In this document: piece by piece, positions 33,884 to 38,507 of the stretch
Layout: the number at the start of each line of letters is the position of its first letter
Position numbering within the stretch: the first letter of the stretch is position 1
Origin: Alphaproteobacteria bacterium
Lineage (GTDB): Bacteria > Pseudomonadota > Alphaproteobacteria > Reyranellales > Reyranellaceae
Length of the DNA stretch: 64,000 nucleotides
Assembly (NCBI GenBank): GCA_016870115.1
Contig: VGCH01000004.1
Coordinates: 1-64,000 of the forward strand
Direction of reading: 5' to 3'
The notes under the pieces: generated by a model
The model's input: the letters and a program-made list of their open reading frames with translations, nothing else
Database searches by the model: none
Told to the model about the DNA's origin: nothing
Position numbers and translations under genes: made by a program

Positions 33884-34750
33884 TTACCCCAGCACCTTGG
33901 GCGGGGTGTAGAGGGCAAAGCCGTTGTAGGGCGCGGAGCGGTCGTGGTCGGGGACGGTGTAGAACGAGGACCGCGCGTTGTTGTGCAGCCCGCCATCGAC
34001 CCGGACCGCGATACCGGTGATGTAGGCGGCGGCCTCGCTCAGCAGGAAGACGATGGCGGCGGCGATCTCGCTTTCGGTGCCGTGGCGCTTCATCGGCACG
34101 CGGCCCTTCACCGACCGCAGCACCTCGTGCGCGCGCTCGGGATAGCGGTCGAGGCCCGACGAGGCGATGAAACCCGGGATCACCGAATTCACCCGCACCC
34201 CGGCGTGCGCCCACTCGACCGAGGCGGTGTAGGTGAAGTTGGTCTGGCCCGCACGCGCCGCGCCATTGTGGCCCATGCCCGGCATGCCGAGATCGAAATC
34301 GGCGCCGACATTCACGATCGCCCCGCCCCGCGCCTCCATCGCGCCGAGATAGACCTCGCGCGAGACCAGGAAGGTCGCGGTCATGTTGTTGGCGACGACG
34401 GCGTTCCAGCCATTGAGCGAGATGTCGCGTAGGGGCGCGGGGAACTGGCCGCCGGCATTGTTGACCAGCCCGTCGATCGCCCCGCCGCTCCAGTCGAGCG
34501 CCGCGCGCACCATCGCCTTGACCTGACCCTCGTCGCGCAGGTCGGCCGCGTGGGTGAGGGTGTCGGGCCGGCCGAGCTCGGCCTTCACCGCCTCCAGCTT
34601 GGCGTGCGTCCGGCCGACCAGCCCGACCCGCGCGCCGAGGGCCGCGAGCTCATGCGCCGTGCAGCGCCCGAGCCCCGAGCCGCCGCCGGTCACCAGCACG
34701 GTCTTGCCGGCGAAAAGCTTTGGGCGAAAGACGGAACGATAATCGGGCAT
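33884..34750 (-). CDS. SDR oxidoreductase, PECR/AtuG-like
   Basis: 288-aa short-chain dehydrogenase. The Rossmann motif TGGGSGLG lies near residue 20, followed by NNAGG near 100. The catalytic region reads GHNGAARAGQTNFT, i.e. His where classical SDRs have Tyr; this is the pattern of the peroxisomal trans-2-enoyl-CoA reductase / citronellyl (AtuG) group, so activity is expected. The C-terminal PGFIASSGLDRYPE and GIAVRVDGGLHN also fit. The substrate is probably an acyl-CoA or terpenoid. The ATG at 34750 was chosen where SDR similarity starts. Confidence 0.87.
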   Translation of the reverse strand: MPDYRSVFRPKLFAGKTVLVTGGGSGLGRCTAHELAALGARVGLVGRTHAKLEAVKAELGRPDTLTHAADLRDEGQVKAMVRAALDWSGGAIDGLVNNAGGQFPAPLRDISLNGWNAVVANNMTATFLVSREVYLGAMEARGGAIVNVGADFDLGMPGMGHNGAARAGQTNFTYTASVEWAHAGVRVNSVIPGFIASSGLDRYPERAHEVLRSVKGRVPMKRHGTESEIAAAIVFLLSEAAAYITGIAVRVDGGLHNNARSSFYTVPDHDRSAPYNGFALYTPPKVLG

Positions 34751-34870
34751 GGGCAACTCGCGGAGCTCGAACGACGGCGCACGATAGCGCGTCGCCCGCC
34801 CGTCGTCGTCCTGCCTTCCGCCCAATGCGACGTCACGGCGGACGCGCGTCCGCCCAGGGTACGCAGCTGA

Positions 34871-34897
34871 AAGGTCCTTCGTTGCGCTCGGGACGAC
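34871..34897 (+). repeat. REP-like element, copy D
   Basis: AAGGTCCTTCGTTGCGCTCG then GGACGAC. It opens the first copy of the tandemly duplicated transcription unit; copy E is at the matching place in the second. Confidence 0.7.
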
Positions 34898-35027
34898 GGG
34901 AGCGCCCGCAATACAGACGCGACCGAATCGCGGTGTCGGCAACATCGCGACGATACGGAAGCCTGGCATCTTCGCGCCATCGACGGACCGCATCCCGCGG
35001 GCCACAGACAGACAAACGGAGATCATC
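34871..35027 (+). repeat. Duplicated leader, first copy
   Basis: Leader of the first NALTx gene. It aligns throughout with 35596-35754: both start with a REP element and share ACCGAATCGCGG, AACATCGCGACGA, GGCATCTTC.CGCCATCGACG and CCACAGACAGACAAACGGAG before the ATG. It must contain the promoter, but no clear -35/-10 pair stands out. The shared last 40 bases, including the ACGGAG ribosome site, are the best conserved. Confidence 0.75.
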
Positions 35028-35396
35028 ATGTTCAAGACTATCGCTACCTTCATCGTCGTCGCCGCCGCTTTCGCCGCCACCGCTCCCGCCCAGGCGGGCG
35101 CGCTGAACGGCTCCTCGGTCAACGGCATCGCTGCCAACGCGCTGACGCAGAACGCGTTGACGCAGAACGCGCTGACGGACAACGCGCTGACGAGCAACGC
35201 GCTCACGAGCAACGCGCTGACCGCCAACGCGCTGGACTCGAACGCTCTCGACAGCAATGGCATCGGCGCGAACGCGCTGACGGAGAACGCCCTGGGCACC
35301 AACTCGCTGACGACCAACTCGCTCACGACCAACGGCGCGAGCGAAGGCGCCGCCCGCTTCTCGATCGAGGGCATCGAGCTGCCGGTGATGCGCTAA
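35028..35396 (+). CDS. Secreted N-A-L-T-x pentad repeat protein, copy 1
   Basis: 122-aa exported protein. Residues 1-23 are a Sec signal peptide (VVAAAFAATAPAQA, cleaved before Gly24). Residues 27-106 are 16 consecutive five-residue units with Asn at every fifth place (27, 32, ... 102); the commonest unit is NALTQ/NALTS, with NG and NS variants at the ends. The C-terminus is ARFSIEGIELPVMR. The order N-A-L differs from the A-N/D-L of classical pentapeptide repeats, yet a right-handed beta-solenoid is plausible (inference). Ribosome site ACGGAG lies 6 bases before the ATG. A paralogue follows 358 bases downstream and a strong terminator ends the unit. No function can be assigned; I know no named family. 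Confidence 0.8.
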   Translation: MFKTIATFIVVAAAFAATAPAQAGALNGSSVNGIAANALTQNALTQNALTDNALTSNALTSNALTANALDSNALDSNGIGANALTENALGTNSLTTNSLTTNGASEGAARFSIEGIELPVMR

Positions 35397-35422
35397 GCGC
35401 AAGTCTCCCGCCTCCCGCGACG

Positions 35423-35453
35423 CGGCGCCCCTTCGGGGGCGCCGTTGTCGTTT
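35423..35453 (+). terminator. Rho-independent terminator after NALTx gene 1
   Basis: Perfect 9-bp stem CGGCGCCCC/GGGGCGCCG closed by a TTCG tetraloop and followed by TTGTCGTTT. It starts 27 bases after the stop codon. The same hairpin, base for base, follows the second copy. Confidence 0.88.
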
Positions 35454-35472
35454 GGGGGCGGCGAAAACATGA

Positions 35473-35565
35473 CCCTCACCCCACCTCTCCCGCGCCGCGG
35501 GAGAGGAGTCCGAGACCCGCCGTTCTCAGGCTCCTCTCCCCCTTGGGGGAGAGGCGGGGTGAGGG
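35473..35565. repeat. Large inverted repeat, CCCTCACCCC/GGGGTGAGGG type
   Basis: Two 19-base arms (35473-35491 and 35547-35565) complementary at 18 of 19 positions, each next to a smaller CTCTCCC..GGGAGAG hairpin. This is a dispersed intergenic repeat type seen in many proteobacteria. It lies between the two copies of the duplicated unit and is absent after the second. Confidence 0.8.
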
Positions 35566-35595
35566 GGCTGCGCCCGTCCACAAGCGCGCCGGTGA

Positions 35596-35622
35596 AAGGT
35601 CCTTCGCTGCGCTCAGGACGAC
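35596..35622 (+). repeat. REP-like element, copy E
   Basis: AAGGTCCTTCGCTGCGCTCA then GGACGAC, opening the second duplicated unit; it corresponds to copy D. Confidence 0.7.
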
Positions 35623-35754
35623 AGGGGGGACCCCGCGATGCAGACGATACCGAATCGCGGGGTCGGGAACATCGCGACGACATGGAGGTCCGGCATCTTC
35701 ACGCCATCGACGGGCCGCATCCCGCAGGCCACAGACAGACAAACGGAGGACACC
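35596..35754 (+). repeat. Duplicated leader, second copy
   Basis: Leader of the second NALTx gene, colinear with 34871-35027. It differs by scattered substitutions and small indels, with the strongest match in the last 40 bases before the ATG. The divergence shows the duplication is not recent enough to be an assembly artefact. Confidence 0.75.
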
Positions 35755-36048
35755 ATGTTCAAGACCATCGCCACTTTCGCCGTCGTCGCCGCCGCTTTCG
35801 CCGCCACCGCCCCGGCTCAGGCGGGTTGGAGCAACGGCATCGACTGGAACGGATTCAGCGGCAACGGCATCGTGGCCAACGGCATCGTGGCCAACGGCAT
35901 CGGCCCGAACGCGCTGACTCAGAACGCGCTGACGGGCAACGCGATGACGGCCAACGCGCTGACGGGCAACGCGATCAGCCACAACGGCACGTCCAAGGCC
36001 GCCACCCGCTTCTCGATCGAGGGCATCGAGCTGCCGGCGATGCGCTAG
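35755..36048 (+). CDS. Secreted N-A-L-T-x pentad repeat protein, copy 2
   Basis: 97-aa paralogue of the preceding protein. The signal peptide differs at one residue (MFKTIATFAVVAAAFAATAP). There are 11 pentads with Asn at residues 27 to 77; the first five are NG-type (NGIVA, NGIGP) and the rest NALTQ/NALTG-like. The C-terminus is TRFSIEGIELPAMR, nearly identical to copy 1. Start chosen at ATG 35755 after AAACGGAGGA; the longer frame upstream lies in the leader. The difference in unit number between the copies fits slippage of the 15-base DNA repeat. Confidence 0.8.
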   Translation: MFKTIATFAVVAAAFAATAPAQAGWSNGIDWNGFSGNGIVANGIVANGIGPNALTQNALTGNAMTANALTGNAISHNGTSKAATRFSIEGIELPAMR

Positions 36049-36074
36049 GCCCCCGTTCCCCACCTCCCGCGACG

Positions 36075-36105
36075 CGGCGCCCCTTCGGGGGCGCCGTTGT
36101 CGTTT
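36075..36105 (+). terminator. Rho-independent terminator after NALTx gene 2
   Basis: The same CGGCGCCCC-TTCG-GGGGCGCCG hairpin plus TTGTCGTTT as after copy 1. It starts 26 bases after the stop codon and ends 20 bases before the convergent amidase stop. Confidence 0.88.
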
Positions 36106-38144: not shown

Positions 38145-38351
38145 TCAGTCGGCGGCCTTGAGGTTGACGGCGGCGCTGCGGCCGCGCTCGGTGGCAACTT
38201 CGAAGCTCACCTTCTGGCCCTCGTTGAGGCCGCCCATGCCGGCGCGCTCGACGGCCGAGATGTGAACGAACACGTCCTTGCCGCCGCCCTCAGGCTGGAT
38301 GAAGCCGAAGCCCTTGGTGGCGTTGAACCATTTGACAGTACCGGTAGCCAT
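38145..38351 (-). CDS. Cold-shock (CspA-family) RNA-binding protein
   Basis: 68-aa cold-shock domain protein. RNP1 is KGFGFI and RNP2 VFVHIS, with the opening [15 protein letters not shown]. It binds single-stranded RNA or DNA and acts as an RNA chaperone. An AAGGAG site precedes the ATG. The upstream 200 bases hold no gene and probably form the long leader common for such genes; a promoter-like pair is noted at 38508-38536. Confidence 0.95.
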
Positions 38352-38507
38352 AGTCGTCTCCTTGGCGGATGCGGGCGCAGGGATCAATCGCCGAAGGGTG
38401 CGCCCGCACGGGCCGAAGGCGAGTTGGCCGAGAAGTTTGGGAAGAGAGGGTAGTCCGTGACCCGCGAGGGTCGGGCCGCCAAGTCAGGCCAAGTCTCAGG
38501 TGGTCGG

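Follow-up and report, generated by a model that had tools for sequence, protein, structure and literature searches.

Two tandem genes for asparagine-pentad proteins

The stretch of DNA that was analysed (the window, 64,000 nucleotides) comes from a draft genome of the Reyranellaceae and carries, between an SDR-like and an amidase-like open reading frame (ORF; both so named by sequence), two small genes on the forward strand with the following features.

34960..35002, + strand: promoter/5'UTR element of copy 1, a −10-like GGCATCTT and then CCATCGACGGACCGCATCCCGCGG (covariance model R1, 53.8 bits; exact pattern match)
35028..35396, + strand: copy 1 (P0001), N-pentad protein of 122 residues (ORF list and translation)
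35028..35096, + strand: predicted Sec signal peptide of copy 1, MFKTIATFIVVAAAFAATAPAQA (sequence reading; conserved family-wide)
35106..35345, + strand: array of copy 1, 16 unbroken N-[A/G/S]-x-x-x pentads (16/16 Asn in the same phase)
35355..35393, + strand: C-terminal tail of copy 1, RFSIEGIELPVMR (a tail with IEL-P is conserved in the family)
35422..35445, + strand: intrinsic-terminator-like hairpin 3' of copy 1 (sequence)
35687..35729, + strand: promoter/5'UTR element of copy 2 (covariance model R1, 46.1 bits)
35755..36048, + strand: copy 2 (P0002), N-pentad protein of 97 residues (ORF list and translation)
35755..35823, + strand: predicted Sec signal peptide of copy 2 (sequence reading)
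35833..35997, + strand: array of copy 2, 11 unbroken N-[G/A]-x-x-x pentads (11/11 Asn in the same phase)
36007..36045, + strand: C-terminal tail of copy 2, RFSIEGIELPAMR (sequence; family tail)
36074..36097, + strand: terminator-like hairpin 3' of copy 2, identical to that of copy 1 (sequence)

Both proteins begin with MFKTIATF[IA]VVAAAFAATAPAQA, followed by an uninterrupted pentad array. An Asn is followed by another at +5 in 15 instances in P0001 and 10 in P0002, far beyond what 20,000 shuffles gave (means 2.3 and 1.4, maxima 8 and 6), and none of the 27 Asn of the arrays slips out of phase. The original prediction, made by reading the sequence, had placed a pair of secreted proteins at 35028-36048, with Asn at every fifth position in 16 and 11 units; it was right on coordinates and phase, and a signal peptide could be recognized by sequence in both copies. 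The near-identical cap that it described, RFSIEGIELPxMR, was confirmed as well, the tails RFSIEGIELP[VA]MR differing in a single residue. Its description of arrays built only from N-A-L-T-x was too narrow, since NG and NS units are present: the repeat unit is N-[G/A/S]-hydrophobic-x-x, five N-G units open P0002, and P0001 includes NG and NS units. Position 5 of the unit is for the most part small or polar in the window proteins, and neither translation contains Cys.

Both genes come with a promoter/UTR element of their own, and the terminator-like hairpins behind them are identical, so that the pair looks like a monocistronic unit duplicated in tandem. On this reading of the sequence, the genes are orphan copies, each with a putative promoter and terminator of its own. 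An antisense ORF overlapping copy 1 (33884-35374) was dismissed as an upstream extension of the SDR-like gene.

The pentad family and the selection acting on it

The two genes are not an isolated pair, as had been supposed, but part of a multi-copy family. The search for paralogues that had been proposed turned up further members, so that the source genome holds at least five intact ones: the window pair and one each on contigs C2, C13, and C39. Contig C13 carries an additional promoter/UTR element that is truncated by the contig end. A search with a 13-row profile (E 0.01 or better) detected pentad homologues in 22 of 75 Reyranellaceae genomes, a weak match in a 23rd (G005, E 0.006) being left out of this count. 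The Reyranellaceae contain about 40 members, and 43 were read in all. Outside the family Reyranellaceae, one further likely member was found (L089), which looks genuine; two other matches of the class-wide search (L088 and L090) look like chance arrays and were discarded.

Like the other members, the window proteins combine a Sec signal with an Asn at each fifth residue, Gly/Ala coming next, and with an IELP-like tail strand. Across the family, the number of units per array varies from about 3 to 16, position 3 of the unit is mostly L/I/V, and position 5 is mostly L/W. One polypeptide (L074:1977-2435, on G001:C220) runs signal peptide, array, tail, array, tail, and this double architecture suggests that an array plus its tail behaves as a module.

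Divergence by position was computed on 23 pairs of members that are 55-97% identical. Amino acids differed at 12% of Asn positions, 14.5% of the positions that follow them (N+1), 16% of signal peptide positions, and 20% of tail positions, and at 53% of the array positions other than these. All position classes also showed silent changes, and the Asn codons comprised 61 AAT and 335 AAC. Selection thus acts on Asn, N+1, and the tail. The original prediction would have fallen if relatives were absent and the pair showed no sign of purifying selection; relatives exist, and Asn and tail are conserved while the other array positions drift. At four loci (L101, L185, L195, and L196) the small ORFs that follow the UTR element are short, degenerate, or unrelated in some other way, which gives the impression that part of the family copies have decayed.

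A shared promoter/5'UTR element and an OmpR-type regulator

Most Reyranella members have in common a 21-base element (CATCGACGGACSGCATNNCGC) about 50 nt before the ATG, and both window copies carry it, 50 nt from the ATG (53.8 and 46.1 bits). With a covariance model of 43 columns, 58 sequences were among the matches listed at 34.8 bits or above, the next scoring 31.1 and below; a search of Rfam yielded no family at its gathering score. Within the UTR, a small hairpin (CGGC-AUCCC-GCCG) has 96.7% of its cells paired and one pair with double changes (5 sequences). This covariation is modest and no more than suggestive, and the sequence could just as well be a DNA site. An anti-Shine-Dalgarno helix (CUCCC/GGGAG) was considered and set aside without claim, because the transcription start, which like the others is inferred, may fall after CUCCC.

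The same UTR element is also found 5' of genes for GG-leader peptides. Those that go with C39 ABC exporters in Reyranella resemble the pentad genes in element and in regulator type, and differ from them in having another export route and no pentads. One locus (L158; G082:C158:353000-362000) has the element at four GG-leader peptide genes in tandem, which adjoin genes for an HlyD-like protein, a C39-peptidase ABC exporter, and an OmpR-type regulator. Four further loci (L105, L107, L109, and L143) encode small Pro-rich Sec peptides (MF[AT]KFAIA...) with the identical 21-base element, near the same type of regulator.

An OmpR-type response regulator adjoins many of the pentad, ADYC (see below), Pro-rich, and GG-peptide loci, and falls into two subtypes that are 65% identical. 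Boxes in the upstream regions of these loci matched the subtype of the adjacent regulator in all 16 decidable cases, with 3 ties: GAYAC accompanied one subtype (7 cases) and GMAAC the other (9 cases, four of which come from one locus, so that the cases are not all independent). That the box type tracks the regulator subtype supports, without proving, the binding of the regulator to these boxes. CAAGG repeats form a third type of upstream box, for which no regulator is in hand. ChvI was rejected as the regulator, its published motifs failing to match the GATAC or GCAAC boxes.

Pentad genes are linked to genes for secreted ADYC proteins

The first case was found in genome G008, where the secreted protein encoded after the pentad gene matched Pfam ADYC (PF20032) with 139 bits. 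ADYC was detected in 21 of the 75 Reyranellaceae genomes; 20 contained both families, 2 pentad genes only, 1 ADYC only, and 52 neither (Fisher p=6e-15). The three with a single family are drafts, in which contig ends can split gene pairs. Upstream of 24 of the 32 Reyranellaceae ADYC domains lies a pentad gene on the same strand, at a distance of 145-1612 bp (the position of one pentad gene, G004:C1:1125603-1125800, is an estimate based on its UTR element), and 17 of these 24 pentad genes are within 320 bp of the start of the ADYC domain.

The arrangement recurs in a second class of Pseudomonadota, represented by G587 together with nine relatives: in 10 of 10, the gene just upstream of ADYC encodes a pentad protein. 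In some of them the ADYC start codon lies 3 nt past the pentad stop, and the pentad tails of the group read like LxxVxVRLPxxR. At two loci of this second lineage (L250:5611-6180 and L251:7492-8076) a gene for an ECF sigma factor (PF07638) is divergent from the pentad-ADYC pair, and at L251 a protein kinase gene (PF00069) is also nearby.

A third lineage is the Rhizobiaceae. In Rhizobium sp. WSM4643, WP_222295222.1, annotated as hypothetical, is a NAITA-pentad protein with the tail VDDVISVELPSGK, encoded directly downstream of the ADYC protein WP_222295223.1; in Neorhizobium sp. EC2-8 the pentad gene likewise lies directly downstream of ADYC. Pairing was thus seen on 2 of the 2 plasmids read, two other ADYC-bearing Rhizobium plasmids being left out of this comparison. 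The proteins have NAITx/NALSx units and ISVELP/IGVELP tails. The order of the genes is reversed relative to the other lineages, a difference that speaks against one arrangement having simply been inherited.

In the source genome, the single ADYC gene detected lies on contig C8, and no pentad gene was found upstream of it within the 8 kb listed. Neither the window pair nor the other pentad copies of this genome adjoin an ADYC gene. Taken over the three lineages, these results show a strong genetic link between pentad genes and secreted ADYC-domain proteins. This partner had escaped the original prediction, as had the common UTR element and the regulator. Adjacency alone could reflect co-regulation instead of binding between pentad and ADYC proteins.

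ADYC proteins, like pentad proteins, carry a signal peptide, and start with a VEGTEF..DGR.LRS.ELVGA.L stretch, the last part of which (ELVGAxL) looks like two ordinary pentads; the window proteins differ from them in having no ADYC domain. In certain myxobacterial proteins, NG pentads are presumably fused to ADYC. A PDB sequence search with one ADYC protein as the query gave nothing significant, and a search confined to open-licence papers found none on ADYC or NG repeats. As far as that literature shows, neither the ADYC link nor the shared regulon has been described, and an earlier description elsewhere is possible.

Comparison with known repeats and predicted structures

That the proteins belong to no named family was upheld by the proposed profile searches, in which neither window protein reached the cut-off of any Pfam or NCBIfam family. 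Searches of Pfam, NCBIfam, PHROGs, and PDB sequences returned only weak low-complexity matches to the window proteins. The GLTT repeat (PF01744) gave a weak match to the repeat letters, at 14.5 and 14.3 bits, below its cut-off of 21. The repeats of mycobacterial PPE-MPTR proteins (Pentapeptide_2, PF01469) have Asn and Gly recurring every five residues, though not adjacent; the window proteins have neither a PF01469 match nor a PPE domain.

Pentapeptide repeat proteins (PF00805) share the five-residue periodicity with the window pair, and some of them are exported. They also share hydrophobic residues at two of the five positions with many relatives of the pair, in which positions 3 and 5 of the unit are hydrophobic and Asn-Gly falls between units. 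The window unit, N-[G/A/S]-hydrophobic-x-x, differs from the PF00805 consensus A-(D/N)-L-x-x with its Leu/Phe centre, and the IELP tail and the ADYC partner are found on the pentad side only. PF00805 did not match either window protein even at E 10, whereas one relative of the second lineage, at 27.6 bits, exceeded its cut-off of 20.2, and several others reached 12-18 bits. The different register that had been proposed is only partly right. The window proteins have no A-(D/N)-L and no PF00805 score, but in many relatives the two hydrophobic positions are open to being read as i-2 and i of a classical pentapeptide repeat, pointing inward, with N-G as the turn residues i+1 and i+2. As a type, the repeat varies a kind that is already known. 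In the secreted pentapeptide repeat protein YjbI of Caulobacter, conserved Cys pairs flank the beta-helix (PMC12864828); the window proteins have no such pairs.

A mini beta-solenoid had also been suggested. AlphaFold2 predicted the mature forms as helical, with pLDDT of 59.9 and 52.3 from alignments of 4 sequences each, a low-confidence helix rather than beta structure. The prediction neither shows nor excludes a solenoid, and lends support neither to that fold nor to a rod.

A possible exported repeat module that works with ADYC

Hydrophobic positions 3 and 5, the relative that passes PF00805, and the pentad-like N-terminus of ADYC led us to favour, as the most likely reading, a pentad protein that is exported as an extended repeat module and acts together with ADYC on the cell surface or beyond it; we give this reading about an even chance of being correct. 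Each window protein would be exported by Sec and belong to an N-[G/A]-pentad family that has no name. Its mature form would make an extended repeat rod, either a coil of divergent pentapeptide type or a looser fibre rich in Asn, and the short hydrophobic tail strand would dock a partner, most likely the ADYC protein. In Reyranella, an OmpR-type two-component system probably switches on the pentad genes together with other small exported peptides. Extra pentad copies would supply this same system, on the cell surface or beyond it, with rods that vary in length and surface. This molecular function is inferred. A more specific proposal, which we make tentatively and hold to be somewhat doubtful, is that N-[G/A]-pentad proteins and ADYC constitute an unrecognised two-part exported system: a variable-length Asn-ladder rod would dock an ADYC head via the tail strand, and in Reyranella a two-component regulator would govern this system and, by way of one conserved promoter/5'UTR element, Pro-rich and GG-leader exported peptides as well.

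Among the alternatives, the proteins could be divergent classical pentapeptide repeats that form a right-handed quadrilateral beta-helix, with positions 3 and 5 of the unit inside, Asn-Gly in the turns, and an ADYC link that is incidental or lineage-specific. The score of the second-lineage relative (27.6 against 20.2 bits, with several others at 12-18) and the family preference for L/I/V at position 3 and L/W at position 5 agree with such a helix. The window proteins agree with it less well, as they lack A-(D/N)-L and any PF00805 match at E 10 and as position 5 of their units is mostly a small or polar residue, and AlphaFold2 gave a low-confidence helix; moreover, recurrence of the ADYC pairing in three lineages misfits an incidental association. 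We regard this alternative as unlikely, although it deserves more weight than the two that follow.

An Asn-rich spacer or hydrophilic coat peptide without structure, free to drift in its number of units and functional through its tail alone, would account for the low-confidence structure predictions and for the spread of array lengths, from about 3 to 16 units; disorder is possible in repeats rich in N-G. Such a peptide is hard to reconcile with Asn and N+1 being conserved like the signal peptide while the other three unit positions drift, or with 27 of 27 window Asn holding phase, and we consider it improbable. Much the same standing is given to bacteriocin-like or signalling peptides, that is, a quorum- or stress-controlled exported set that acts on other cells; the array would be its variable active part, and ADYC would serve in processing or delivery. 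The multiple, variable, and dispersed pentad copies would suit this role, as would the UTR element 5' of GG-leader peptides, four of which lie beside an HlyD-like protein and a C39-peptidase ABC exporter. The pentad proteins themselves, however, carry a Sec signal and not a GG leader, the signal peptide of ADYC speaks against a cytoplasmic immunity protein, and the pentad composition is unlike that of known membrane-active bacteriocins.

Through the ADYC link, an unnamed secreted repeat class gains a conserved genetic partner, so that the functions of both become testable as a pair. The shared element in turn ties unrelated exported peptides, with Sec signals or GG leaders, to one promoter/UTR element and one type of regulator.

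Other features of the window

On the − strand, positions 38183-38417 gave a sub-threshold match to the cspA thermoregulator (31.8 bits, below the cut-off of 78), over a cold-shock-like ORF. Similar intergenic repeats (GGTCCTTCG[TC]TGCGCTC[GA]GGACGAC-like) lie 5' of both pentad genes, at positions 34870-34920 and 35595-35630 of the window.
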